38,481 nt of DNA from a virus. The stretch lies in IMG/VR virus record IMGVR_UViG_3300043395_003956, positions 1 to 38,481 of that record; one strand, written 5' to 3'. This document shows positions 3,431 through 37,087 of the stretch, piece by piece. The notes below the pieces were generated by a model that had not been told where the DNA came from, did no database searches, and saw only the letters and a program-made list of their open reading frames with translations. A program made the position numbers and the translations under genes. How positions within the stretch are numbered: the stretch's first letter is position 1; each line of letters opens with the position of its first letter.

Positions 3431-3708
3431 TTGTTCAACTCCAGTCGAAGTGCGCGTATGGGGTGAATCCCCAGTACCAGCTTATACGACGTAGCTCGCT
3501 CAGGCTGCGCCGCCCCAACAGGAGTTACGAATGAGGAGAATTCGCGTACGGTACTCGTGATCCGAAAGAGACCCCGAAAGACAACATCTTGCTGCCTTAC
3601 GAGGCTCTCCGCAATAACGTCTTTTAGCGTGGCAAAGACGAGCTGAACTGTCGATAGCGGCAGGCCAGTCCGCTTTACGACCTCCTTTTCTATGTCTGCC
3701 TGGTTCAC
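3391..3708 (-). CDS. HU/IHF-like DNA-binding protein
   Basis: 105 residues. The first 55 align by eye with HU/IHF: M-N-Q-A-D-I-E-K-E-V-V-K-R-T-G-L-P for the first helix, a second helix (T-V-Q-L-V-F-A-T-L-K-D-V-I-A-E-S-L), then D-V-V-F-R-G-L-F-R-I for the strand that is usually VxLxGFGxF. The normally basic beta-arm and the PxTG region are diverged and the tail is longer than in HU (about 90 residues). It starts with GTG sharing one base with the polymerase stop (TAGTG), so it is coupled to DNA polymerase. HU-family proteins bend DNA; here it may serve replication, recombination or genome condensation. The divergent arm makes the binding mode uncertain. Confidence 0.78.
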   Translation of the reverse strand: MNQADIEKEVVKRTGLPLSTVQLVFATLKDVIAESLVRQQDVVFRGLFRITSTVREFSSFVTPVGAAQPERATSYKLVLGIHPIRALRLELNKWTNTLSYSKKST

Positions 3709-6113
3709 TACTTTGCATCTCCCCAGGACGCCGCCGAATCCATTGAGATAAGGATCGGAACATCCATCACAAACGGGTTTTCCATCTGTGCGCGGATCTC
3801 TTTCTTTGCAATATCGAGAACCTCCGGAATGTCAGGAACCTCGAATACAAGCTCATCATGGATCTGCATAAGCATCCGAACGCCACACGAACGTAAGATG
3901 GGACTGGTCTCGCAGTTGATCATCGCCTGAATTGCGATGTCTGCGGCAGATCCCTGAATACGCGAGTTGACGGACTGGCGTTCTGCTTGCTTCGCCAGAC
4001 CCTTATCCTTAGAAAGAATGTCAGGCAATCTCCGATAGCGCCCCAAAATCGTCTGCACGAACAAATCGTTTTGGCAGGCGTAGTGCGTATCTTCGATGAA
4101 CTCGAACACCTTTGGATAGATCGAGAAGTACTTCTGAATCAGTTCTTCGGCCTCTGGGCATGTGTCATATGATGCACCATTTCGCGCGATCTTCTTCACC
4201 ATTTTGAGCCCAAGCTGAGAGCCCAACTTCTTTGCTCCAATTCCGTACAGCAAGCCGAAGCCAACCGCCTTCATTTGAGCGCGTAGCTCCAGTAAGGCCA
4301 GCTGGTCTTTGGTCGGATGTTCCGCCTTCTTGGCCGCCGAAATGTCGTCGTAGTTCGCACCAACTGCGAGTGCGCCAGTCATTGAGTGCAGATCTTTTCC
4401 CGACTTGATCGTGCTGATCATTGTCGGATCTCCACTCATGTGCGCCATAATGCGCATTTCCAGCTGCTCGTAGTCCGCAACCACCAGCACCATTTGCTGA
4501 TCTCGCGGAAGATTTGGCGGGCGTACATGCTCCACTTCAGGCAGGCACCAGTCATCCGAGGAACCCCATTTGCCCGCGATGAAGAATTTCCGAATCCTAC
4601 GGCCCCAATCCCCGCGTGCAGGAATGTTCTGTAGGTTGGGATCTCCAGACGAAAGGCGCCCCGTGACGGTACCTGCGATCTTCAGATCGGTATGAATTCG
4701 CTTTCGCCAATCAACTGTTTTCGGCAATGCGTCAATGTAGGTGCTGTGCAGTTTTTGGAGCACGCGGTGCTCTTGCAGGCATTTGGCCCGCGGATCTCCC
4801 TTCTCGGCCCAGTCATCAATGACTTCTTTAGAAATGCTGGGCTTCTTCTGCCCAGTGGTTCCTCCAGAACTCATCTTCCACGGAGGCGCCCCAAATGGGT
4901 CTACCCACTGGTTTCCTCTCTTCTCAAAGAAGAGATCGACTAGTTGGGTCGGGCTATTTGGGTTCACAGACCATCCCGCAAGGGAGACGAATTCGCGCTC
5001 CAGCCGTGAAATATCGTTCGCCATTGGCGTCGCGAGTTTCTCAATCTCATCTACATCAAGCTGAAATCCGCGGCGCTCCAACATCCACAGGATGCGGACA
5101 AGCGTGGCTGTGGTGGAGTTGTAGTAGTCCAGGATCGAAACCCCTGGCTGAATAAACTCCTCTGATAATTTCTCTTCTAATGCCGCTACCAACATGAACG
5201 AGGCCCACGCATCTAACGAAGCGTAGTCGCCCACCATCAACTGAATCATGTCCAGCGGGGGTCGATCATTCTGCGAAAGAGACGACAAGTAGTGCAGCAG
5301 GATCTCATGCGCTTCTATGAGAACATCTGAATCACCAAGGACTTTCGTCACTGAATCACGATCATCCTTATCTACAGGCCCAAGTCCCATTAACTCAGAA
5401 AAATCGCTTACGTATCCAGCCTTTCCGCGCGTAGTTGGGCAGAGTCCATACTTCCGCCCGATCTTTAGAACCTGTGACGCTGTTAGCAGCTTCAGAGGAA
5501 AACTCCTGCCAACAGCCAGGCGCTTCGACACGAGTTGCATGTCTTCGAGCGCACCTGGATCCATCTCGATTTGACCGACAAGCGCCAAGAGCTCCAAGGC
5601 AAGGGAAGGATCCTTAGTCTCGAGTGCATCGTGCATGCGGCACAGCGTTTCCACTTCCTTGTCTGTGGTGCCTACAGATCCAAAGACCTGAGTAAACGGC
5701 GCCATCTTTAAGCCCAGATAGTCTGCCGCACACTGCTTTAGACCATGGCGTCCCTGCCGATTTTCGTCGTGAAGCCAGTCCATAGCGACCGTATCAAAGA
5801 TATGTCCCTTGATTTCGATCCCATGATTCGCAACCATGTGCATGTCAAACTTTGCGTTGGTCATGCACTTTGCAACTGTGGGGCACTCCAGAATGGGCTG
5901 AAAAATCGGCAGGAGGCGTACAGGAGCGCAAAAGCGAGTGTTTTCGAACCCAAATGAGAAGAACTTGATCCGAGCCTCGGTCTTGCTCAGTCCAGTGGTT
6001 TCTGTGTCAAACCCCACACGGTCTAATTTAGACATTATGTTGACTAAAGAAACCGCCTGCTCTCTCGTGCTTACGTACATCGGCTCTGGCGTATCGATAA
6101 ACTTATAGCGCAT
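3708..6113 (-). CDS. polA: family A DNA polymerase with 3'-5' exonuclease
   Basis: 801 residues. Proofreading domain: D36-T-E38 (Exo I), N-A-K-F-D90 (Exo II), Y297-A-S-L-D301 (Exo III). Polymerase domain: G-T-V-T-G-R-L-S-S and N-L-Q-N-I-P (482-498), motif A V-V-A-D547-Y-E-Q-L-E-M-R, motif B R-A-Q-M-K-A-V-G-F-G-L-L-Y-G (611-624), motif C H752-D753-E754. All catalytic carboxylates are present. Motif A has Glu where E. coli Pol I has Ser (DYSQ). Motif B keeps Phe at the position matching E. coli Phe762. About 150 residues (140-290) are inserted between Exo II and Exo III. There is no 5'-3' nuclease domain. Its ATG has GGGGGAG just upstream. It is the replicative polymerase of the phage by context with helicase and primase. 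Confidence 0.96.
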   Translation of the reverse strand: MRYKFIDTPEPMYVSTREQAVSLVNIMSKLDRVGFDTETTGLSKTEARIKFFSFGFENTRFCAPVRLLPIFQPILECPTVAKCMTNAKFDMHMVANHGIEIKGHIFDTVAMDWLHDENRQGRHGLKQCAADYLGLKMAPFTQVFGSVGTTDKEVETLCRMHDALETKDPSLALELLALVGQIEMDPGALEDMQLVSKRLAVGRSFPLKLLTASQVLKIGRKYGLCPTTRGKAGYVSDFSELMGLGPVDKDDRDSVTKVLGDSDVLIEAHEILLHYLSSLSQNDRPPLDMIQLMVGDYASLDAWASFMLVAALEEKLSEEFIQPGVSILDYYNSTTATLVRILWMLERRGFQLDVDEIEKLATPMANDISRLEREFVSLAGWSVNPNSPTQLVDLFFEKRGNQWVDPFGAPPWKMSSGGTTGQKKPSISKEVIDDWAEKGDPRAKCLQEHRVLQKLHSTYIDALPKTVDWRKRIHTDLKIAGTVTGRLSSGDPNLQNIPARGDWGRRIRKFFIAGKWGSSDDWCLPEVEHVRPPNLPRDQQMVLVVADYEQLEMRIMAHMSGDPTMISTIKSGKDLHSMTGALAVGANYDDISAAKKAEHPTKDQLALLELRAQMKAVGFGLLYGIGAKKLGSQLGLKMVKKIARNGASYDTCPEAEELIQKYFSIYPKVFEFIEDTHYACQNDLFVQTILGRYRRLPDILSKDKGLAKQAERQSVNSRIQGSAADIAIQAMINCETSPILRSCGVRMLMQIHDELVFEVPDIPEVLDIAKKEIRAQMENPFVMDVPILISMDSAASWGDAK

Positions 6114-7288: not shown

Positions 7289-8226
7289 ATGCGTTTAGCC
7301 TCACTGATACTGACTGGGGAGCGACAAAGCTCTTGCAGTTCCTCTTCCGAAAGGTCATCTGGTTGATGAATTCCTTCCGGGAGCGGGACCACATACAACT
7401 TTACCGCCTGAAGTTTTTGACTGATTTTCAGAGATCCTGCACGACCTGCATCGTCGTTATCGAGACACAGAATCACTTTGGATGTCAGACTTTCAATCAA
7501 TGTTTTTTGGGCGTCGGTCATGTAGCTGCCCATTAGAGCAACCACATTCGTAAGCCCGGATTGGCAGAACCACAGAGCAGCTTTGAAGCCTTCGACAACG
7601 TAAACAGGTTTACGCGCTGTCTCCAGCTCCTTTGCCACTTTATCGATCCGCCAAAGATGGTCTCCTTTTGAGAAGGAGGGGACATTCAGCCCATATTCTG
7701 CTAACTCGGTCGTATAGACCTTGTATTTGCCAAACTCTCCGGTGGGCTGCTTTCCTACGATGCCCACGAGTTTTCCGCGCTTGTCGCGAATCGGAAAAGT
7801 AACTCGTGACAATTTTTTATCATATCCAATATCGTTTTCAAAGAGCACGCGCTGACTGAACCCTGCCTCCAAGAGTTGTAGAGGGCACCAATCAAAAACT
7901 CCAAGCAACCGCTCAGGAAGTTCGTCGGCTTCTCGTACTACCTTGAACCTGGAGATTTTTGGAGCAGGCGTTCTCTTTGCGATCTTATCAATGGTTGTAC
8001 GGCTCTCACCCACCTTTGTGAGAAAAGAGCGCAGATTTCCACCTCCACATCCAGCAAAGCAGTTCCAGAGCCCTGTCTGTATATTGATCGACAAGCTTGG
8101 CTTACTCTGCCCAGGCACCTCCCCATGAATGGGACAAAAGCCCATGTAGTTGTCGCCGGACCCCTGACGAAGCCCGACGACATGTTTTTCAAAGATGGCC
8201 AAGAAGTTAGGATCTGAATGGGTCAT
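7267..8226 (-). CDS. dnaG: DnaG-type DNA primase
   Basis: 319 residues from the ATG ending at 8226. A CHC2-type zinc site lies at the N-terminus (C31-P-I-H34, then C56-x3-C60), as in primases. A TOPRIM domain follows: V-Y-V-V-E212-G with the metal-binding glutamate, and V-I-L-C-L-D256-N-D258-D as the DxD. It makes RNA primers for lagging-strand synthesis and should pair with the helicase just upstream. The frame stays open to a GTG ending at 8277, but that would overlap the helicase tail by 71 bases and add only a Lys/Arg-rich stretch that is the shadow of the helicase tail. It is shorter than bacterial DnaG (about 580), lacking a separate C-terminal helicase-binding domain. Confidence 0.9.
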   Translation of the reverse strand: MTHSDPNFLAIFEKHVVGLRQGSGDNYMGFCPIHGEVPGQSKPSLSINIQTGLWNCFAGCGGGNLRSFLTKVGESRTTIDKIAKRTPAPKISRFKVVREADELPERLLGVFDWCPLQLLEAGFSQRVLFENDIGYDKKLSRVTFPIRDKRGKLVGIVGKQPTGEFGKYKVYTTELAEYGLNVPSFSKGDHLWRIDKVAKELETARKPVYVVEGFKAALWFCQSGLTNVVALMGSYMTDAQKTLIESLTSKVILCLDNDDAGRAGSLKISQKLQAVKLYVVPLPEGIHQPDDLSEEELQELCRSPVSISEAKRIWQSRSL

Positions 8227-9616
8227 CTCGCTTCTTCGGCTTCTTCTTTTCTTCTTTCTTCGGGCCTCCGCCCCCACCTTCTTCGTCTTCGGCGCCCTCG
8301 CTCATCTCCATCTGCTTCTTCATCTCAAGGAACGCTTTTACGTTCGCATGATTCTGTTGCACACTGAAATCTGAGCCAGGGTTGGCGTTGATGATGAACG
8401 GTGGGATGACGGTCTCTCTACTCTTAGAGAACACCAGAAGTAGAGAAGCTCCGCGCCCCGATGGATTCGGCCCGCGGAACGCCCGAAAGGCTATGTCTGC
8501 ATCTTGTCCGATGCCGTCAGCAAACGACAAGTCGTCCAGATCTCCAGACGGCTCTTTTGCATTTACGCGGTTTGCTTGCGTAGTTCCAACAACCGGGCAA
8601 CCAACAAACTGCGCCATACCCTTGAGGTCCTGTGAGATATGGCTAATCTGCTTCCAGTCCGCAGTCCGCTGACCTGATCTTCCATCGCGCATCAAATAGA
8701 AACCATCTACTACGATTAAGTCTGGCTGGAAGCGCTCCGCAGCGGCAATCAAATCTTCAACGGTGCTCCCGTTCTTCTTACCCTTGTCGCTCATAAACAT
8801 CAGCGCGCGATGATGAGTCCCTTCCTGTTCAGTCTCTTCTGTCGCCGCAAGTTCATCCATAATATCGAAGAAGTCGCGAGCGTCTTCTTCCGATAACGTT
8901 CCGCGCCGAAGTCGATCGTAATCTACGTTTCCGAGCACGGAACTTACACGGGTCAGCATGGCCTCTCTTGAAATTTCTTTCGAGAACAGCATGACCCGAT
9001 GATTGGTCAGGTACGCATGTGCTGCCATTGCACACGCAATCCATGTTTTCATATTTCCAGGCCGGCCATAGATGACGATAAATTCCTCGTCCCGCATTCC
9101 GCCTGTCTTCTGGTTTAGAACTTCCCAAGGATAGGGAATCCCGACAATACCTCCAGCTTCCGCATGCGTTGTGTACTGTTGCCGAAGAAGCGCGATTGAG
9201 GACGACAGAAGAATCCCGTCATCTTCATGCGCATCAACGTTCATTCTCCGAATCTTTGGCAGGAACGAATCCAGAATCAAAGAAGGATCGGAGTCTCCCT
9301 GAAGCTCATCCTGCATCTCGTTGAGGATGCTTTGAAGGTCCGTCTGAACCTTCTGTGTCCGCACATCCGAGATCAGAGCGTTCAGGGAGTTTCGACTTGG
9401 CGAGTAGTCAAAGCTCGGAAACTTGCGCAGAAATCTCTCAACAGTCGGAACTTCTCCGCGCTGTTGAGGATCGTGGTATTCGCGCCAAAGCCAATCAAAG
9501 GCTTCGCGAGCAGGCTCCAGTGTGAACCATTCAGGTGTTAGTCCCTTTTTCTTCGGCGTGTTGAAGTCTGCGCTACTCAGGATGTTGCTAATGAGTTCGA
9601 GCTCTGGATGCGGCAT
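8207..9616 (-). CDS. dnaB: DnaB-like replicative helicase
   Basis: 469 residues. An N-terminal helical domain (about 1-125) is followed by a RecA-like motor: G-R-P-G-N-M-K-T at 184-191 (Walker A), L-F-S-K-E-I-S (motif 1a, the DnaB FSLEM equivalent), D-L-I-V-V-D-G at about 299-305 (Walker B), V-V-G-T-T-Q-A-N-R (motif 3), and A-D-G-I-G-Q-D-A-D (the DnaB SGxIEQDAD equivalent). It unwinds the fork as a hexamer. The last 30 residues are low complexity, an E/D run, five Gly, then a Lys-rich tail. The start shares one base with the preceding stop (TAATG). The primase directly downstream fits a helicase-primase pair. Confidence 0.93.
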   Translation of the reverse strand: MPHPELELISNILSSADFNTPKKKGLTPEWFTLEPAREAFDWLWREYHDPQQRGEVPTVERFLRKFPSFDYSPSRNSLNALISDVRTQKVQTDLQSILNEMQDELQGDSDPSLILDSFLPKIRRMNVDAHEDDGILLSSSIALLRQQYTTHAEAGGIVGIPYPWEVLNQKTGGMRDEEFIVIYGRPGNMKTWIACAMAAHAYLTNHRVMLFSKEISREAMLTRVSSVLGNVDYDRLRRGTLSEEDARDFFDIMDELAATEETEQEGTHHRALMFMSDKGKKNGSTVEDLIAAAERFQPDLIVVDGFYLMRDGRSGQRTADWKQISHISQDLKGMAQFVGCPVVGTTQANRVNAKEPSGDLDDLSFADGIGQDADIAFRAFRGPNPSGRGASLLLVFSKSRETVIPPFIINANPGSDFSVQQNHANVKAFLEMKKQMEMSEGAEDEEGGGGGPKKEEKKKPKKRDDPFRS

Positions 9617-18868: not shown

Positions 18869-18906
18869 TTGCCGAGGAGTTAGATCTCGGCTACAATACT
18901 TATGAC
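18869..18906 (+). promoter_or_regulatory. promoter of the RNA polymerase unit with CTTATGAC copy 2
   Basis: TTGCCG (18869-18874), a 17-base spacer and TACAAT (18892-18897) make a fair sigma-70-type promoter. Overlapping its 3' end is CTTATGAC (18899-18906), part of the 17-base block at 18890-18906 that matches copy 1 at 15 positions. The site could thus be read by the host enzyme first and by the phage enzyme later. The polymerase ATG is at 18926 with GGGGA seven bases upstream. An ATG inside the motif (18902) is in frame but has no ribosome site. Confidence 0.6.
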
Positions 18907-18925
18907 CTGCAAATGGGGACCTTTT

Positions 18926-21900
18926 ATGCCTAATCTGAATCCGATTGAGAGCCACAAACTGATGGTTCAGCGCGCGAAGGAAGCGATCGCGTCGCACTTT
19001 CCAATCGAAGGCAGTAAGCATCGGCTGGAGTTGGTTCGGGTCGAACTTGAAGAGGATAGCGCTACTGGCGCGTCTCAGTTCAACTCTGGCAATTATGAAA
19101 GCCAGATGGATGCCCGGCTCAATGATCGAACCTGGGGCCCAGATATTATTGGGGTATTTCGTCTTATCGATAAAGCAAGCGGAAAAGTATTAGACGAAAA
19201 ATCGCGGACTCTTGGAAAGATCCCAAAGATTACGACTCGCTATAGCTACATTGTTAACGGGAATGAGATGCAGCTGGACAGTGTATTCCGGCTGAATCCT
19301 GGCGCGTACCATGCAGAGGCACAAAACGGCGATCTTCTTGCCAAGTGGAACGTTGCGGCAGGTAGCCGTGTAGGGTCATTTGATATTTACATTGAACGCC
19401 GGGATCCAAAGAAGCTCGGCCTTATGACAATGGATGTCAGTAGCAGCGGTACATCCTCCGTTCAAATTCCTATTTATCCCATTCTAAAGGCGATGGGAAT
19501 TGACGATGGACAAATCAAAAATGCACTCGGAGAGAAGATCTACGTCATCAATAGGGATAAGAGTTCTCCTACAGATGTTTTAAAATTTCATAAGGCACTT
19601 GAGGGGAGAAAGAAGGACGCAGACTACACTCCTCCTTCTACTGCCGACGCAGCTAAGTTTACACGCGAAGTTTTTGAGTCTGCGGAGGTTAGCCCCCAGA
19701 CCATGAAGGCAGCGTTTGGAAAAGAATTTGATCGGATTACTGGTGACGCGCTTCTTTTGTCTGCAAAGAAGTTGGTCGACATTTCGCGTGGTGACGTTCC
19801 TGAAGATGATCGGCAGTCTTTGGCGAACAAGCGTCTATTCGGCGCAGAAGACTTCGTCTACGAAGAGTTGACCAAGGGTAAGACGATCTATGCGTTGACA
19901 CGCAAAATCCGTAATAACGTCGATCGCAAAGATAAGATCCAGGACATCATTCCGGCGTCAAATGCCGGTTATGGCGCAGCGATCCTTAAGCCGTTCAAGG
20001 CTGGACAGCTTCCGACGCAGACCAACCCTCTTCAGTTTGTATCGAACCACACCAAGACAACAATCCTTGGCGCGGAGTTTGGAGGTATCAAAGGCGAGAA
20101 TGTCAACTTGATGGAAGACAAGTTGATTAACCCAAGTCATCTGGGACTTCTTGATCCTCTGCAGACGCCTGAAAGCTCAACAACGGGTATTCATCTACAC
20201 GTTCCTCTTGGCGCAAAAAAGGTCGGTCACGATCTTATGGCGCAGGTCGTAAATGTCCGGACAGGTAAAGTCGAAAGTAAATCTGCGGCGGATTTAGAGC
20301 GCGCTGTTGTAGCTTACCCAGATCAGGTCAAGATCGATAAGAAGCCCGATGGGTCCGTGAAGGTGACTCCACTTTCGGCTGATGTGGTCGTATACGACAA
20401 GGACCGCAATACAACGAAGCGTCCCTGGAAAGACGTCGAGTATGTCCTTCCATCTGCCAAGTTGCTTTTTGCGGTGAGCGCAAACCTGATTCCGTTTGTC
20501 CAGAATGACAACGGAAACCGCGCGATGATGGCGGCAAAGCATCAAGAGCAGGCGGTCGGACTAAAGCAACGCGAGGCCCCTCTTGTGCAAACTCAGGCGG
20601 GCGGCGGTGCTTCATATGAGTCGTTAGTTGGAAACATGGCGGTTGTTTCGGCAAGTGCTGATGGGATTGTGACTGAGGTCACAGAATCTCGGATCGTCGT
20701 CACTGGGACTGATAAAAAGAAGTACGTTCACTCGATTTATAATAACTATCCCTTAAATGGAGCAAAACATATGCTCCATTCGGAGCCTGTAGTAAAGAAA
20801 GGAGACCAGGTACGAAAAGGCCAACTCCTTGCTGATTCAAACTTTACCAAGGGTGGAAAGCTCTCCCTCGGAACAAACCTGCGAGTCGCATACATTCCGT
20901 ATCGTGGGTACAACTTCGAAGACGGTGTTGTTATTTCAGAATCAGCGGCTCAGAAACTTGTGTCCAGCCACTTGCACTCTGCCGAGGCAGAGATGCATCC
21001 AAATGTGGTTGTAAACAAGAAAATGTGGAGACAGTACGCAGGTCCTGTAAAGGCAACTCCAGAGATCCTGCAAAAGTTGGATGATGATGGCGTTATTCGG
21101 GTAGGGCAGCGAGTAGAGCCTGGCGATGTCTTGATTGCGAAGTTACAAAAGCAGTCATTGTCCAAAGATACCGAAGATATCCGGCGTAGACTGAAGGGCG
21201 CCGTCCAAGACTACACAGATTCAGCAGTGCGTTGGGACCACGAATACGGTGGAGAAATTGCGCGGGTCGTGAATAACGGGCGTAAAATTGCCGTGTTCAT
21301 TCGAACTGAACAGACGATGGAGGTGGGCGACAAGCTCTCTGGTCGGCACGGAAATAAGGGCATTGTTACTAAAATTCTGCCCGATGATAAGATGCCCAAG
21401 GATAAAGACGGAAATCCCGTACATGTCCTTATGTCCCCTGCGGGCATTCCCTCCCGTATGAATCCTGGGCAGGTCCTTGAAACGGTTGCCGGGAAAATTG
21501 CGCTAAAGACTGGAAAGCCTTTTGTTGTAGACAACTTTAGTGCAAATACCGACTACTCTGCACTCGTCAAAGCAGAGATGAAGAAAAACAACGTTTCTGA
21601 TACTGACGAGCTATTTGATCCCGAAACTGGGGAAAGTCTTGGGCAAGTTCTGACAGGACACCAGTACATTTTGAAGCTGGACCACCAAGCAGAGAAGAAG
21701 ATTTCTGCGCGATCCGGTGGTTTTGGATACGCATACAAAACCACGGGAGAGGCTTCTCAGGGCTCTGGCCTTGGAGAAGGCGGTCAGCGCATTGGTGGCT
21801 TGGACACATACACGTTGCTTGCGCATGGAGCGAAGCAAAACCTTCGCGAGATGCAAACATACAAGTCTGATCGGGAACAAGCAGAGGATGTATGGACCCG

Positions 21901-24900
21901 GATCATGCGCGGTGAACGTCCCCCTCCTCCGAAAGTTCCTCGTTCGATGGAGCAGTTCACACACTACATGCGCGCAATGGGTGTGTACTCGGAACGCAAA
22001 GGTCGCGAGTATTCGCTAATGCCGATGACGGATAAGCAAACCGTCGCGCAGAGCTCAGGCGCGCTCGCCTTCCCGGAAAAGACTCTTGCTGCCAAGGGTT
22101 CTTTAACAAAGGAAGAACGGGGCGGCCTTTTTGATAGAACAAAGACCGGGGGCCTTGAGGGAACGAAGTGGACTCATATGACATTGGGGGTTCGGATTCC
22201 AAACCCCATGTTCGAAGAGCCCATTCGATTGCTTCTTCAGATGCCTAAGCCTGAGTTTCAAAAGCTGTTGACTGAATCAGGAGCCGTTGGAAAGAAATCA
22301 GGCTTTGCGGTTATTGAGCAAAAGTTGAGAGAAATCAACGTAGATCAGGAGCTTAAGGTTGCTGAGAAGCGGCTATCAGAAGTTTCTGAAAACGAACTCA
22401 ATGTAGCGTACAAGCGCGTACGGTATTTACGGGCGCTCAAAGAACTTGGAGTTACGCCTGTCGATGCGTACACGAATGAGGTTCTCCCAGTTCTTCCTCC
22501 GTCGTTGCGTAGAGTGAGCATCGGATTTGACGGAACGCAGATCATTGATCCTGCCAACAAAATGTACGCAATTATTGGGCAAATGGTTAAGCAGCTAGAT
22601 CAAGCTGAAAAAGAAAAAATGCCGGTAGGCGAGATTCAGAAGATTCAAGCGCAAATCTACGAGACTACGAAAGCACTTCGTGTCTCAGGTATGCAGATGG
22701 AAGGTAAACAAGTCCCGAGCTTGATGGATAAGCTAACGGGCCTCAAGCAGCCAAAGCAGTCGTTCTTCCAATCCGGGGTACTTGGTAAGCGGCAAGATCT
22801 GTCGGGCCGCTCGGTCATCACGCCAGATCCAGAAATGCCACTTGATGAAGTCGGTGTTCCTCGCGAAATGGCGATGGAAATGTACAAGCCGTTTGTCATC
22901 AAAGAGCTCTGGAGAAACATGGGTCGCGCGAACTCTCCTGGAGAGGCGCGACTCATGATTAAGAAGAATCATCCTGCTGCTAATGAGGCACTCGAGCGCG
23001 TTGTTCGTGACCGTCCCGCATTGATGAAGCGAGATCCCGCGCTGCACATGTTCTCAATTTTGGCGTTCCGACCGCGTCTGGTTGAGGGCAAGTCTGTCAA
23101 AATCCATCCCCTTGTGACTGGTGGATTCAACGCAGACTTCGACGGCGACACGATGGCGCTGTACGTCCCCATTACAGACGGCGCCGTGCAGGAAGCGAAG
23201 AACATGCTTCCTTCTAAGAACCTTTTCTCACCGACAAGCGGTGGGCTGATGGTAACGCCCAGCCAGGACTCGGTACTTGGAATTTTCCAGGCGACTGAAT
23301 GGGGCAAGCCCGTGTCAGGCCAGTACACCGAGGAGGAGGCAGTTCGGCTGCTGAAAGCTGGAAAGTTGAAGTCCTACAACGTTATTAATGTAAAGGGCTA
23401 CAACAAGCCTACGACTGCGGGTCGGTTGATGATCAATGCGACGCTCCCTGCACAGTTTAAGGGTGATCAGGATCTTTTGTACGATCCAAATTTCCGCATG
23501 GCAAAGGGCGGTATGAAGCGATTTGCGACCCGTATCGCCAGAGCTGAGCCAGATGAGTTCTCCAGAATGATTGATGACTGGAAGACTCTCGGATTTGGTC
23601 TCGCCTTTAAGAACGGATCCAGCGTTAAGCTGGACGACTTCCATGATGGATATAAACTTCGCGACGAAGTTTTGAAGAAGTACAAGAAGGAAGAGGACGC
23701 GATTCGGAAGGGATCGGGGTCAATCAAGGATAAGGATGACAAGATTGTCGCGCTTTACCAAAAGGCACAAAAAGAACTGAAGCAGGTAGGTGAAGCGCGC
23801 TACAACTCCACACTCAACAATGGGATGTGGGATTGGGCACGCTCTGGAGCCAAGGGCGACTGGAACCAGTTTGGCCAGATGGTCATGGGTCCGATGCTTG
23901 TTCAGGATCCAATGAATCAAACAGTTCCGTTCCCGATTACGAAGTCCTTTGGAGAGGGCCTGCCAGTTTCGCAGTATTACGCGTCTCTCCATGGTGCGCG
24001 TAAGGGAACGATTGACCGTGCCTCTGCAACTGCAAAGCCCGGTGCGCTTACAAAGGAACTCATCAACACCGTCATTGATAATACCATTAAATCAAAAGAC
24101 TGCGGGACAATTCGCGGAGCGCTCTTATCATCAATGGAGTCCGATATTGAGGGTCGCTTCCTTGCAGGAGAAGTCCCCCTGAAGGGAGGCGAGACAATTG
24201 CCAAGGGCACGCTGATCACTCCACAAATTCGATCCAAGATTAAAACGGATGGCCCCAAAAAAGTTCTTGTTCGGTCACCGCTGTACTGCAACGAGGTCAA
24301 GGGAATCTGCGCGACCTGCTATGGACTCAACGAGCGTGGATCGCTGTACACGGTAGGTACAAATGTTGGAATTATCGCAGGACACGCGCTGGGAGAACCA
24401 ATCACCCAGATGCAGATGCGAACGTTCCATACCGGCGGTGTCGGCGGGACCAGTGGAGTTGGTGACTACTTCACAGCAGCGGAAGATCTATTTAAGGTTC
24501 CGAAGAAGCTAAAGGGCTCTGCAACGCTGTCTACGGTTTCTGGAAAGATCGAAAAGATCGAGAATGACGCCCTCGGCGGAAAGATTGTTACGATTGCGGG
24601 CAAGCCGCATGTGGTTCCATTCACGAACCCACTGCTTCCCTCAATTCGCGTAGGAGAGGAAGTCGAAAAGGCCGATGCACTTTCAGAGGGCAGAAAGAAC
24701 CCACACGATATTCTTACTGTCACCAAAAACATGAGCGCAGTCCGCACCCACTTGGCAGACTCGCTGAACGATCTATACGCCGAAACAACTGGAAATGAGC
24801 GGCGCAGGAATATCGAGACAGTTATTCGCGCAATGACGGACTTGACGCGGATTGATGATTCGGGTGATGATCATATGTATCTACGCGGGCAACTTGTTCC

Positions 24901-25282
24901 AATGTCCGAGATCGAACGGAAGAACAAGGAACTGCGCGCAATGAACAAGCGCGAGATCAAGCATACGCCCCAGCTCAAGGCAATGAATAAGATGCCGCTC
25001 GCAGGTCAGGAGGACTGGATGGCACGTTTGAACTTCCAGCGCCTCCAGGAAACGTACGTTGAGGGGGCCGCGCAGAACTGGAAGTCAGACATCCATGGGC
25101 ACCCAATCGCAGGAATTGCGCATGGAGCTGAGTTTGGGCTCGAACCCCCAGGTTCCGTAAAGCTTCCCAATGCCCCGGCCATTCCTGAACGCATGTCAAA
25201 CATCCCGAAAGCCCGGCCCCCCGGAAACCATAGTCCGTCTTTGCCCTCGCAGAACAGCCCTGGCTTCTTTTCGTTCCTTTAG
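18926..25282 (+). CDS. rpoB-rpoC: single-chain RNA polymerase: fused beta and beta-prime subunits
   Basis: 2118 residues. Beta part, about 1-1030: I-P-K-I-T-T-R and I-V-N-G-N-E, Q-T-N-P-L near 365, N-P-S-H-L-G-L-L-D-P-L-Q-T-P-E, L-I-P-F-V-Q-N-D-N-G-N-R-A, G-Y-N-F-E-D-G-V, and G801-D-K-L-S-G-R-H-G-N-K-G. Beta-prime part, about 1060-2118: G-K-R-Q-D-L-S-G-R-S-V-I, catalytic N1402-A-D-F-D-G-D1408 with all three Asp, bridge helix H-G-A-R-K-G at 1689, zinc site C1726, C1788, C1795, C1798, and trigger loop near 1819-1838 (G-E-P-I-T-Q-M-Q-M-R-T-F-H-T-G-G). The N-terminal beta-prime zinc ribbon is absent. E. coli beta plus beta-prime total about 2750 residues, so this is a trimmed fusion. No frameshift or stop divides it. 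It should transcribe phage genes. No alpha, omega or sigma is visible here. Confidence 0.96.
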   Translation: MPNLNPIESHKLMVQRAKEAIASHFPIEGSKHRLELVRVELEEDSATGASQFNSGNYESQMDARLNDRTWGPDIIGVFRLIDKASGKVLDEKSRTLGKIPKITTRYSYIVNGNEMQLDSVFRLNPGAYHAEAQNGDLLAKWNVAAGSRVGSFDIYIERRDPKKLGLMTMDVSSSGTSSVQIPIYPILKAMGIDDGQIKNALGEKIYVINRDKSSPTDVLKFHKALEGRKKDADYTPPSTADAAKFTREVFESAEVSPQTMKAAFGKEFDRITGDALLLSAKKLVDISRGDVPEDDRQSLANKRLFGAEDFVYEELTKGKTIYALTRKIRNNVDRKDKIQDIIPASNAGYGAAILKPFKAGQLPTQTNPLQFVSNHTKTTILGAEFGGIKGENVNLMEDKLINPSHLGLLDPLQTPESSTTGIHLHVPLGAKKVGHDLMAQVVNVRTGKVESKSAADLERAVVAYPDQVKIDKKPDGSVKVTPLSADVVVYDKDRNTTKRPWKDVEYVLPSAKLLFAVSANLIPFVQNDNGNRAMMAAKHQEQAVGLKQREAPLVQTQAGGGASYESLVGNMAVVSASADGIVTEVTESRIVVTGTDKKKYVHSIYNNYPLNGAKHMLHSEPVVKKGDQVRKGQLLADSNFTKGGKLSLGTNLRVAYIPYRGYNFEDGVVISESAAQKLVSSHLHSAEAEMHPNVVVNKKMWRQYAGPVKATPEILQKLDDDGVIRVGQRVEPGDVLIAKLQKQSLSKDTEDIRRRLKGAVQDYTDSAVRWDHEYGGEIARVVNNGRKIAVFIRTEQTMEVGDKLSGRHGNKGIVTKILPDDKMPKDKDGNPVHVLMSPAGIPSRMNPGQVLETVAGKIALKTGKPFVVDNFSANTDYSALVKAEMKKNNVSDTDELFDPETGESLGQVLTGHQYILKLDHQAEKKISARSGGFGYAYKTTGEASQGSGLGEGGQRIGGLDTYTLLAHGAKQNLREMQTYKSDREQAEDVWTRIMRGERPPPPKVPRSMEQFTHYMRAMGVYSERKGREYSLMPMTDKQTVAQSSGALAFPEKTLAAKGSLTKEERGGLFDRTKTGGLEGTKWTHMTLGVRIPNPMFEEPIRLLLQMPKPEFQKLLTESGAVGKKSGFAVIEQKLREINVDQELKVAEKRLSEVSENELNVAYKRVRYLRALKELGVTPVDAYTNEVLPVLPPSLRRVSIGFDGTQIIDPANKMYAIIGQMVKQLDQAEKEKMPVGEIQKIQAQIYETTKALRVSGMQMEGKQVPSLMDKLTGLKQPKQSFFQSGVLGKRQDLSGRSVITPDPEMPLDEVGVPREMAMEMYKPFVIKELWRNMGRANSPGEARLMIKKNHPAANEALERVVRDRPALMKRDPALHMFSILAFRPRLVEGKSVKIHPLVTGGFNADFDGDTMALYVPITDGAVQEAKNMLPSKNLFSPTSGGLMVTPSQDSVLGIFQATEWGKPVSGQYTEEEAVRLLKAGKLKSYNVINVKGYNKPTTAGRLMINATLPAQFKGDQDLLYDPNFRMAKGGMKRFATRIARAEPDEFSRMIDDWKTLGFGLAFKNGSSVKLDDFHDGYKLRDEVLKKYKKEEDAIRKGSGSIKDKDDKIVALYQKAQKELKQVGEARYNSTLNNGMWDWARSGAKGDWNQFGQMVMGPMLVQDPMNQTVPFPITKSFGEGLPVSQYYASLHGARKGTIDRASATAKPGALTKELINTVIDNTIKSKDCGTIRGALLSSMESDIEGRFLAGEVPLKGGETIAKGTLITPQIRSKIKTDGPKKVLVRSPLYCNEVKGICATCYGLNERGSLYTVGTNVGIIAGHALGEPITQMQMRTFHTGGVGGTSGVGDYFTAAEDLFKVPKKLKGSATLSTVSGKIEKIENDALGGKIVTIAGKPHVVPFTNPLLPSIRVGEEVEKADALSEGRKNPHDILTVTKNMSAVRTHLADSLNDLYAETTGNERRRNIETVIRAMTDLTRIDDSGDDHMYLRGQLVPMSEIERKNKELRAMNKREIKHTPQLKAMNKMPLAGQEDWMARLNFQRLQETYVEGAAQNWKSDIHGHPIAGIAHGAEFGLEPPGSVKLPNAPAIPERMSNIPKARPPGNHSPSLPSQNSPGFFSFL

Positions 25283-34069: not shown

Positions 34070-37000
34070 GTGAATTTTTTAGATCCTAAGTTTCTTGGTT
34101 CCTGGGAATATTCAGAGCCAAGGCAGGATGAAGAACGGATATCTGAAGATGCTTTACGAGACGCACAGATACCGCTGACTCCGTCTCAGTTTATTGAAAC
34201 CACAATGATGATGCCCAACCCGCATTCCCGTAAGCTAGAAAACTTCTCATTTGCTGAACGCCAATATCTACGACAAATCTACGACATTCAAGCCCCACGC
34301 GTCCTCCTTATGTGCGGAAGACAGGTGGAGAAGACAGTCCATGAGGACGAGCTGGTTCTTCTTTCGACGGGCAGGCATGTCCGAATCAAAGATGTCCAGC
34401 TTGGAGATCGCCTTGTTTGCCTCAATACCGACGAGGTAGCGGATGGCGTCGAGCTCGGGACTGGGCACCTGGCCACCTCGTCTGATGTGACCTGGAAGTC
34501 CGCCAGGTACAACAAACCTTGTGTTCGCGTTTGTACGAGGCAGGGACATAAAGCGGTGCTCGCTACGACGCACCCCATCCGTGTATGGGGAGGATGGCGT
34601 ACTGCAGGAGACGTGCGTGTAGGAGACCGAATTGCAGTTGTTCGACGTGCGGGGGAGTTCCACGGCCTCGCGCAGTCGGACTCCCGTGTCAAGCTCACAG
34701 CGTTCATGCTTGGAGATGGCCACTGCTCTCCGTCCGGATTGTCATTTACAAACGCGACGGATGTAGTCCTGGCGGACTTTATCGAAGGGCTGACCCAAGA
34801 GGGAATGACCTACGGGGTCTCAGACAAGGTAGGAACAGAAGCCGTAGCTCTCCGCCTCCCAAGGTACCGAGCCCAGAAGCTGTACGACTGGATTGGGGAG
34901 GATGGCCTTCTGGGGAAGACCTCCTACACCAAGTCCATCCCGGAGTGGGTATTCCATCTTCCGCGACAACAGACAGCTATGTTCTTGAATCGGTTGTGGG
35001 CGACTGACGGGCATGTAAAGCAAAATACCGGCTCAAAGTGGTCCATCGAGTACTGCTCGATGTCGCACGAGATGATTCGGCAGGTTCAGGCGTTGCTGTG
35101 GAAGTTCGGGGTGCCTTCTTCTATTCGAAAGAACTGGCCTGCCATTTACAAAAGGCGCGGAGAGGATGTCACTGCGTACATCCTTCGCGTAGAGACACAG
35201 GAAGGGGTTCGGACCTTCGTGCGCGAAATCGGAGCCCTCGGGAAAATTGAACAACAAAATATTCCCAGCTGGGAATCGAGCTCCAATCGTGACACGTACC
35301 CAGAGGAGGTGACCCAGCTTGTCCGGGACATCTACAACTCTGTGCGTCCCACGAAGGGAGAGAGGACCTTGCGCGCCGCTGGAATCGAGCGCCTTCCTCG
35401 GAAGAAGTACACACTTACCCGGAGGAAACTCGAGGAATTCGTCATCTTTTTTGAAGGGGATGTACGGTACGACCAAGAGCGAGTAGCTCTACTGCGCGCG
35501 CATCTCCATTCTGATATTTATTGGGATGAAGTTGAAGAAATCGTAGATGAGGGAGACTGCTGGTGCTTCGACCTGACAGTGCGCGGGCACCATAACTTTG
35601 TTGCAGGAGCGATCTTCACGCACAACAGCACTACATTAGGAAACAAGACACTTTCATACGCGTGTTTGATCCCGCACTTTCGCATCCTCTACGTCTCCCC
35701 ATCTAGCCAGCAGACAAAGGAGTTCTCCAAGACGCGCCTACGAGAGCCCCTTGAGACCTGTCCTGATCTCAGAACTTGGTTTCCCGGGCACCTCACCGAC
35801 AACGTTTTCGAAAAGAAAGCGATCAACCGAAGTGAGATCAAACTTCGGTATGCGTTCCTCAACGCAGACAGATGCCGCGGCCTCTCGGCAGATCTTATTT
35901 GTATGGATGAGTTTCAAGATCTACTTCTCGATAATATTCCGGTTATTGAGGAAGCAGCGTCACATAGTCCGTTTAAATGGTTTATTTACAGTGGTACTCC
36001 AAAAAGTTTAGATAATCCTATTCAAAGATACTGGGACGCGTACTCAACACAGAATGAGTGGGCAGTTCCTTGTGAGCGGCACGGATTCAACAACAACCCG
36101 GGAACTTGGCATTGGAATATATTGGGAGAACGAAACATTGGAATTACTGGGCTGTCTTGTGACAAATGCGGAGAGCTAATTCGTCCAGATCATCCTATGG
36201 CGCAGTGGGTTAAAACTGGAAATCCAAATCCTAAATTTGATATTTTTGAAGGGTTCAGAATTCCGCAGTTGATGGTGCCATGGCTCGAGTGGAGTAATAT
36301 TCTCACTAAATATAATCAGTATCCTCGTGCAAAGTTCTACAACGAGGTTCTCGGTGCAAGTTTTGACTCCGGACAACGCCCCCTGACTGAAGGGGATGTA
36401 CAGTCGTGCTGCGACCCAGATTTCTCTCTTAAGATGGAGAAGCTAAAAGAATTTTTGCCTAAACTTCGAGGAAAGCAGGTTTACGCGGGAATCGACTGGG
36501 GCCAGGACTCGAACAACTCGTACACGATCATCTTCATCGGATCGTATATCGATGGTGCATTCCGCATTGTCTTTGCGCATCGATTCTCGGGCGCCGAGGC
36601 GGAGCCAAAAGAGCAAATTGAAAAAATTAAGAAGCTCTTGACCGCTTTCCAGATCACGCGGGTAGGAGTTGACTACGGTGGCGGCTATTGGCCAAATGAT
36701 GAGCTTCTTCGCACCTATGGATCGCAAAAGATTGTGCGATACCAGTACTCAACGCCTAAGACGATTATGAAGTTTGACGCGGCAAAGGGTCGATTTTTAA
36801 TTCATCGCTCTGAAGTGATGAGCGCAGTTTTTAACGCCATTAAACGGAGAGTGTTTAAGTTCCCAAAATGGTCTGAGTTTGGAAATCCCTTTGGGTCCGA
36901 CATGCTTGCTATTTTTTCAGAATACAATGAAAGAACGCGCATGACTGAGTATAAAAAGGCGCACAACACCACCGATGATAGTTTTCATGCTTTACTACTT

Positions 37001-37087
37001 TGTTTCATTGTTTCGATGATTGATCACCCTCGCCCAGATATCATCGTACCAAGTGCTAAAATTGATCGAGAACTCGACACAGACTGA
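34070..37087 (+). CDS. terL: terminase large subunit, interrupted by an intein
   Basis: 1005 residues before splicing, 574 after. The start is GTG at 34070 with GGAGG four bases before it; the frame continues upstream but reads as the antisense of another gene. Spliced ATPase domain: G-R-Q-V-E-K then S-T-T-L-G (P-loop, residues 83-90), L-I-C-M-D-E-F-Q-D (Walker B with catalytic Glu), Y-S-G-T-P-K (motif III). A zinc-like C-x2-H and C-x2-C pair follows (C-E-R-H, C-D-K-C). Nuclease domain: A-G-I-D-W-G-Q-D-S, V-G-V-D-Y-G-G-G-Y-W, and T-T-D-D-S-F-H as the acidic triad. The protein pumps DNA into the head through the portal and cuts it. The gene has its own promoter and an 18-bp hairpin at its end. 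Confidence 0.95.
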   Translation: MNFLDPKFLGSWEYSEPRQDEERISEDALRDAQIPLTPSQFIETTMMMPNPHSRKLENFSFAERQYLRQIYDIQAPRVLLMCGRQVEKTVHEDELVLLSTGRHVRIKDVQLGDRLVCLNTDEVADGVELGTGHLATSSDVTWKSARYNKPCVRVCTRQGHKAVLATTHPIRVWGGWRTAGDVRVGDRIAVVRRAGEFHGLAQSDSRVKLTAFMLGDGHCSPSGLSFTNATDVVLADFIEGLTQEGMTYGVSDKVGTEAVALRLPRYRAQKLYDWIGEDGLLGKTSYTKSIPEWVFHLPRQQTAMFLNRLWATDGHVKQNTGSKWSIEYCSMSHEMIRQVQALLWKFGVPSSIRKNWPAIYKRRGEDVTAYILRVETQEGVRTFVREIGALGKIEQQNIPSWESSSNRDTYPEEVTQLVRDIYNSVRPTKGERTLRAAGIERLPRKKYTLTRRKLEEFVIFFEGDVRYDQERVALLRAHLHSDIYWDEVEEIVDEGDCWCFDLTVRGHHNFVAGAIFTHNSTTLGNKTLSYACLIPHFRILYVSPSSQQTKEFSKTRLREPLETCPDLRTWFPGHLTDNVFEKKAINRSEIKLRYAFLNADRCRGLSADLICMDEFQDLLLDNIPVIEEAASHSPFKWFIYSGTPKSLDNPIQRYWDAYSTQNEWAVPCERHGFNNNPGTWHWNILGERNIGITGLSCDKCGELIRPDHPMAQWVKTGNPNPKFDIFEGFRIPQLMVPWLEWSNILTKYNQYPRAKFYNEVLGASFDSGQRPLTEGDVQSCCDPDFSLKMEKLKEFLPKLRGKQVYAGIDWGQDSNNSYTIIFIGSYIDGAFRIVFAHRFSGAEAEPKEQIEKIKKLLTAFQITRVGVDYGGGYWPNDELLRTYGSQKIVRYQYSTPKTIMKFDAAKGRFLIHRSEVMSAVFNAIKRRVFKFPKWSEFGNPFGSDMLAIFSEYNERTRMTEYKKAHNTTDDSFHALLLCFIVSMIDHPRPDIIVPSAKIDRELDTD
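34334..35626 (+). mobile_element. intein with LAGLIDADG homing endonuclease in terL P-loop
   Basis: 431 residues in frame, inserted exactly between Lys and Ser of the terminase P-loop. N-terminal block: T1-V-H-E-D5-E-L-V-L-L with I-K-D-V-Q-L-G-D. Block B: L-A-T-T-H80-P. Two LAGLIDADG helices: L-T-A-F-M-L-G-D-G (121-129) and F-L-N-R-L-W-A-T-D-G (217-226). Blocks F/G: C-F-D-L-T-V at 411, H-H-N-F, and the final T-H430-N431 followed by Ser+1. Residue 1 is Thr, where most inteins have Cys or Ser. Splicing is expected because the terminase cannot work without it. The endonuclease can copy the intein into empty alleles. Confidence 0.93.

Follow-up and report, generated by a model that had tools for sequence, protein, structure and literature searches.

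Can an intein that begins with threonine splice, and would that threonine be its nucleophile? The question is raised by a virus record of 38,481 bases (IMG/VR IMGVR_UViG_3300043395_003956; the whole stretch is called the window here), in which the gene for the terminase large subunit, TerL, carries an insert within the Walker A motif (P-loop) of its ATPase. A sequence-only reading of the window had described 431 residues with Hint blocks and two LAGLIDADG motifs between the Lys and the Ser of this motif, and the insert was confirmed with exactly the boundaries given in Table 1. A Thr at its first position, an Ala three residues before the block B His and a Ser at position +1 were likewise found as described. 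Used as a query against its own record, the intein matched only itself. The answer favoured below, with a probability of about 65%, is that this would be an active, mobile intein of class 1 type, in which Thr1 is a true and interchangeable nucleophile on an oxygen-only path.

Position of the First Residue

The TerL frame is uninterrupted from a GTG codon at 34070 to 37087 on the plus strand, and the insert lies in frame between the K and the S of MCGRQVEK/STTLGN. Twenty-five relatives were found via the C-extein: 19 without an intein, five with an intein at this site, and one distant. The intein-free relatives, which the sequence-only reading had proposed to look for, all read RQVEKST across the site (19/19). 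The five intein-bearing relatives represent three distinct inteins, namely those of contig L002 (Thr1) and L015 (Ser1), and a Cys1 intein present on three contigs.

An AlphaFold model of the window intein, flanked at either end by ten extein residues and drawing on 37 family members, reached a mean predicted local distance difference test score (pLDDT) of 90. In structural alignments with solved inteins, among them 2cw7 and 1dq3, Thr1 (model residue 11) coincides with the first residue and Asn431 (model residue 441) with the last. By sequence comparison and modelling Thr is the real residue 1 of the window intein, because the intein-free alleles and the structural alignment both place the junction between Lys and Thr1. 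The same two lines of evidence ruled out a shifted junction, which had been raised as a possible refutation since it would put a Cys or Ser at position 1. The intein of the independent contig L002 is 84% identical and also begins with Thr, encoded by another codon (ACG instead of ACA), which makes a sequencing error at Thr1 very unlikely; with 12 further distinct Thr1 inteins at hand, such an error was ruled out.

Homologous Inteins at the Same Site

The family was collected by scans with the window intein and with intein alignments. The search patterns lay inside the intein and not at residue 1, so no letter was favoured at that position. Thirty-eight distinct homologous inteins, including that of the window, were obtained, each of them interrupting a terminase-like frame after the Lys of RQxxK and having Ser as the next residue. 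Seven identical inteins (L018, L025, L070, L073, L074, L078 and L094) and repeat contigs were dropped from the count, as were L076, L079, L097-L105 and L196, whose insertion sites, judged by eye, do not follow RQxxK. The mini-intein L077 was counted among the 38 and excluded from trees; L194 was found after the 37-member alignment had been made, and per-position counts are of 37 unless stated. Since the last two viral scans with sub-alignments added only L194 (Thr1), their other matches being known contigs or the unrelated L196, sampling of the viral collection with such patterns is almost exhausted.

Residue 1 is Cys in 19 of the 38 inteins, Thr in 14 and Ser in five, with no other letter; residues 2 to 6 each show 9 to 15 different letters. 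Among 30 unrelated control inteins residue 1 is Cys in 29, Ser in one and Thr in none, a control that may under-report rare letters because the profile behind one of them (L149, read from the residue before a match starting at profile position 2) favours Cys. The control inteins came from 392 genomes of one phylum; 30 of 68 listed places were used, those given as loci.

On a tree of 37 members (residue 1 and L077 omitted) the three states require 15 changes. Shuffled labels require a mean of 15.4, and counts as low were reached in 99 of 200 shuffles. With only well-supported branches considered, Thr must still have been gained or lost at least 11 times, and on a tree of 36 members residue 1 is joint fastest among the 83 columns with at most three letters. 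Close kin differ at this position: the window and L002 have Thr, L015 has Ser and L017 has Cys, while L194 (Thr1) neighbours L093 (Cys1) at 65% identity. These comparisons suggest that residue 1 of the TerL intein family can be Cys, Ser or Thr interchangeably, with frequent switching between lineages, and that the splicing reaction is tolerant of different first-step chemistry. The route of switching was probably through Ser as an intermediate one base away; Ser codons lie a single base change from those of both Cys and Thr, which would fit the presence of Ser members. In the literature searched, which did not extend to InBase or most subscription journals, no natural Thr1 intein shown to splice and no such switching between Cys, Ser and Thr was found.

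Several members depart from the common layout. A 269-residue intein (L077/L078) has lost most of the endonuclease and kept the splicing blocks, and is thus a natural mini-intein. In one subgroup (L054, L061, L064-L067 and L069) Asp-Ser or Arg-Ser (e.g., TDSF) stands in place of the block F His-Asn that precedes the aromatic residue, and the usual F:13 histidine (block:position) is therefore missing; these inteins otherwise look intact. The TerL C-extein of L036 (4231-7011) contains a second complete intein signature (Intein_splicing 3.4e-12, LAGLIDADG_3 4.9e-17). That of L035 (4252-6798) has 850 residues where about 490 are usual, and Pfam finds no intein domain there. Two members at the same TerL site lie on contigs of bacterial metagenome-assembled genomes, L040 (Planctomycetales) and L041 (proteobacterial), which are probably prophages or co-binned phage contigs. 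At the expected position of the P-loop Lys, the distant TerL relative L027 has GRQVEFT.

Splicing Route and Class

Residue 1 is read as the nucleophile mainly because it is restricted to Cys, Ser and Thr despite its fast switching. In the proposed route, an N-to-O acyl shift at Thr1 would produce an oxyester, the acyl group would be handed to Ser+1, cyclisation of Asn431 would free the intein, and a final O-to-N shift would rebuild the P-loop RQVEKSTTLGN. The window intein is predicted to splice with Thr1 as nucleophile and to carry an active endonuclease, and it is a real and probably working element.

Blocks A, B, F and G occur in order, in frame within a host protein for which intein-free alleles exist, as expected of a HINT intein, and Pfam finds Intein_splicing (1.4e-13) and LAGLIDADG_3 (1.9e-14) in the insert. 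The residues that define class 1 are present: a Cys, Ser or Thr at residue 1 (here Thr), His B:10, Asp F:4, His-Asn at G:6-7 and a nucleophile at +1. Across the alignment Lys-1, His B:10, His G:6, Asn G:7 and Ser+1 are invariant (37/37), and Asp F:4 is found in 36/37. An assisting Thr at B:7, which is common in class 1 and not absolute, is absent; this residue is Ala in the window and in 32/37 members. Class 1 is defined as Ser1, Thr1 or Cys1 in the excerpt available of PMC5222942, so Thr1 alone does not place an intein outside it; Thr1 is also included in class 1 in an excerpt of PMC7765530 and in a figure legend of PMC4031507. The passages on the first step in the main text of PMC4031507 and in PMC7664689 name only Cys or Ser, and the former states that B:7 Thr assists this step in class 1 and class 2 inteins.

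Several points weigh against the assignment. The usual Thr at B:7 is replaced by Ala, the NCBIfam model of the intein N-terminus gives the window 14.6 bits at a cut-off of 24.5, and the selection estimate presented below comes from a single Thr1 pair (window and L002). The main doubt is that the conserved Cys at F:2, Cys411 in the window, may be the real first nucleophile. It would then be the first to accept the N-extein, like Cys F:4 in class 3, or would assist residue 1, which would need only a small hydrogen-bonding side chain. Cys F:2 is present in 33/37 members, and in L194, and in none of 15 unrelated inteins (C-termini found by motif search in 29 loci), where Val (10) or Thr (5) is found. 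No other cysteine is shared by all 19 members that lack Cys1, and the four members without Cys F:2 are all Cys1, as are those departing from Ala B:7. Thr G:5, as in the WCT motif of class 3, occurs in 29/37. Cys F:2 and (by eye) Ala B:7 are signatures of the TerL intein family, and with the absence of Thr1 from the controls they bear out the earlier description of the intein as non-canonical. Known class 3 inteins carry varied residues at position 1, however, whereas residue 1 is always C, S or T here; Asp is retained at F:4; and since Val and Thr are usual at F:2 in the controls, the Cys may be a mere packing variant. Paired comparisons of residue 1 with Cys F:2 or Ala B:7 had no power to reveal an association, as at most two of eight independent tree pairs differ. 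First attack by, or help from, Cys411 is judged unlikely. Slightly more doubtful is the view that the family splices outside the three classes, with the block F Cys at F:2, not F:4, sharing or taking the first acyl transfer and so freeing residue 1 to drift. Class 3 itself (WCT: Trp B:12, Cys F:4, Thr G:5) was ruled out, the window having Ile B:12 and Asp F:4, though it does have Thr G:5.

The sequence-only reading had also supposed that splicing might be slow. A Thr1 intein that splices very slowly or is defective, leaving TerL silenced or timed by the intein, would fit the rarity of Thr1 (0/30 controls) and the general chemistry of a beta-branched oxygen nucleophile, which is expected to be weaker. 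Against it, Thr1 recurs on separate branches, the motifs and catalytic residues of the 13 other distinct Thr1 relatives are intact, Cys1 and Ser1 homologues occupy the same site, no internal stop occurs in any of 44 family rows, all parts of the Thr1 pair are under purifying selection, and close relatives manage without an intein. Slow splicing thus gained no support, and a slow or defective element is improbable. The suggestion that packaging is timed by splicing fared no better: L003 encodes an intein-free TerL that is 94% identical over the C-extein, and therefore phages of this kind can do without the intein. An ATPase that would be inactive before splicing is a reasonable assumption, but it applies generally, and the argument appears for P-loop TerL inteins in the text available of PMC5050341.

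Class 2 inteins are described in an excerpt of PMC7765530 as Ala1 with Cys+1, and Mja KlbA as having Ser at G:6. Class 2 was ruled out by residue 1, none of the 38 inteins lacking C, S or T there. A similar route, in which Ser+1 directly attacks the N-terminal peptide bond and Thr1 is a spectator, would account for the invariance of Ser+1, but G:6 of the window is His, Ser is a weaker nucleophile than the Cys+1 of class 2, and residue 1 is confined to nucleophiles; this is held to be very improbable. It is hardly credible that Thr or Ser is kept at residue 1 because K-T or K-S in the precursor mimics Walker A, so that nucleotide or Mg binding could gate splicing. Lys-1 is indeed invariant and T or S follows it directly in 19/38 inteins, but half of the family has Cys at residue 1, and the other TerL P-loop inteins examined start with Cys (L198, L199) or Ala (L201).

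Selection and Mobility

Selection was estimated on one Thr1 pair, the inteins of the window and L002. The ratio of non-synonymous to synonymous change (dN/dS) between them is 0.058 for blocks A-B, 0.08 for the C-terminal splicing end and 0.10 for the endonuclease; as judged from these sequences, the pair is under purifying selection in all parts. The two inteins differ by 0.575 synonymous differences per site, and Thr has been kept although its codon changed. Since synonymous divergence is greater in their C-exteins (0.832), the intein probably dates from after the two genes had separated, which would fit a mobile element. Two LAGLIDADG motifs with their acidic residues, as in homing endonucleases of this type, are retained in the window intein, and the putative endonuclease would spread it into intein-free terminase genes.

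Comparison with Known Inteins

The model of the window intein shares its fold and layout with the class 1 endonuclease inteins TliVMA (7qss/7qsu), PI-PkoII (2cw7) and PI-PfuI (1dq3), with Z of 23-31 over 318-378 residues and a root-mean-square deviation of 2.5-4.9. His B:10, Asp F:4 and the His-Asn terminus are also shared, but identity is only 17-21% and the window has Thr1, Ala B:7 and Cys F:2. Inserts after the Lys of the terminase P-loop are likewise found in cultured phages (Bacillus KLEB27-3, Psychrobacillus Perkons and Aphanizomenon CL131). These are 21-29% identical to the window intein (CL131 over 27% of the query only), and they begin with Cys, Cys and Ala, respectively, where the window has Thr.

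The small split intein gp41-1 begins with Cys1. It resembles the window intein in its Thr-His-Asn terminus, altered block B and block F Asp, but its block B reads SxxH and that of the window AxTH (available text of PMC12245125). The class 3 intein MchDnaB1, as presented in an excerpt of PMC7664689, likewise has a Thr-His-Asn terminus and an extra conserved block F Cys; in contrast, the window family has this Cys at F:2 and not F:4, where it has Asp; it also lacks Trp at B:12 and always has a nucleophile at residue 1. Predicted oxygen-only chemistry at the junctions is shared with the cysteine-less Ser1/Ser+1 inteins of the PolB16 OarG type (excerpt of PMC10189870), from which the window differs in having Thr and not Ser at residue 1, a block B His that is invariant in the family, and other cysteines. 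The TerL1-a inteins of mycobacteriophages share with the window the host protein and an insertion point that separates the invariant Lys of Walker A from its Ser/Thr (PMC5050341, in the part available); in the window's family Thr, Ser and Cys alternate at residue 1.

Features of the Window

The features of the intein and its host gene are collected in Table 1. The C-extein scores just below the cut-off of Pfam GpA_ATPase.

Table 1. Coordinates of the TerL gene parts, the intein and its motifs in the window.
Feature	Position	Strand	Remarks
TerL N-extein	34070..34333	+	88 codons from GTG, ending in GRQVEK; aligned with L002; intein-free relatives run straight into STTLGN
First half of Walker A, GRQVEK	34316..34333	+	Identical or nearly identical in 19 intein-free TerL
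Intein, 431 residues, HINT splicing domain and LAGLIDADG endonuclease	34334..35626	+	Pfam, NCBIfam, AlphaFold model; structural matches TliVMA, PI-PkoII, PI-PfuI
Thr1 codon (ACA)	34334..34336	+	Predicted nucleophile of step 1
Block B, A77-T78-T79-H80	34562..34573	+	Ala at B:7, His at B:10
LAGLIDADG motif 1, LTAFMLGDGH	34694..34723	+	Intein residues 121-130; kept among relatives
LAGLIDADG motif 2, LNRLWATDGH	34985..35014	+	Intein residues 218-227; LAGLIDADG_3 match at 213-300
Cys411, F:2 of block F (WCFDLTV)	35564..35566	+	Family-specific; possible auxiliary nucleophile
Asp413, F:4 of block F	35570..35572	+	Class 1 state
Block G, Thr-His-Asn	35618..35626	+	Intein residues 429-431; C-terminal splice site
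TerL C-extein from Ser+1 (AGC), STTLGNK	35627..37087	+	PHROG 675, terminase large subunit, 4.6e-50

Elsewhere in the window, an open reading frame (ORF) of 2126 residues (18902-25282, plus strand) matches several PHROG families of RNA polymerase beta subunit in different stretches, together with two large families of unknown function. By these matches it looks like a single-chain, fused phage RNA polymerase of multisubunit type. A DNA polymerase (phrog_17; 3708-6113) and a DnaB-like helicase (phrog_19; 8207-9616) are both encoded on the minus strand. Seven large plus-strand ORFs between 13183 and 32040 gave no Pfam match, and the five of them searched against PHROG gave none there.

Significance

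The new aspect is the interchangeable first residue, and the interest lies in the family more than in this single window. Cys was able to substitute for a catalytic Ser or Thr in many inteins, while Ser could not stand in for a catalytic Cys (excerpt of PMC5222942). Among commonly studied inteins the first nucleophile hardly varies and swaps tend to fail; here Thr has apparently been gained or lost at least 11 times at a single site while all else was retained. The TerL family offers a natural allelic series for studying how inteins tolerate a weaker nucleophile, as well as a supply of inteins with oxygen-only chemistry, which would be expected to be independent of a reduced thiol at the junctions. 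Switching at residue 1 also bears on the evolution of the alternative splicing classes.
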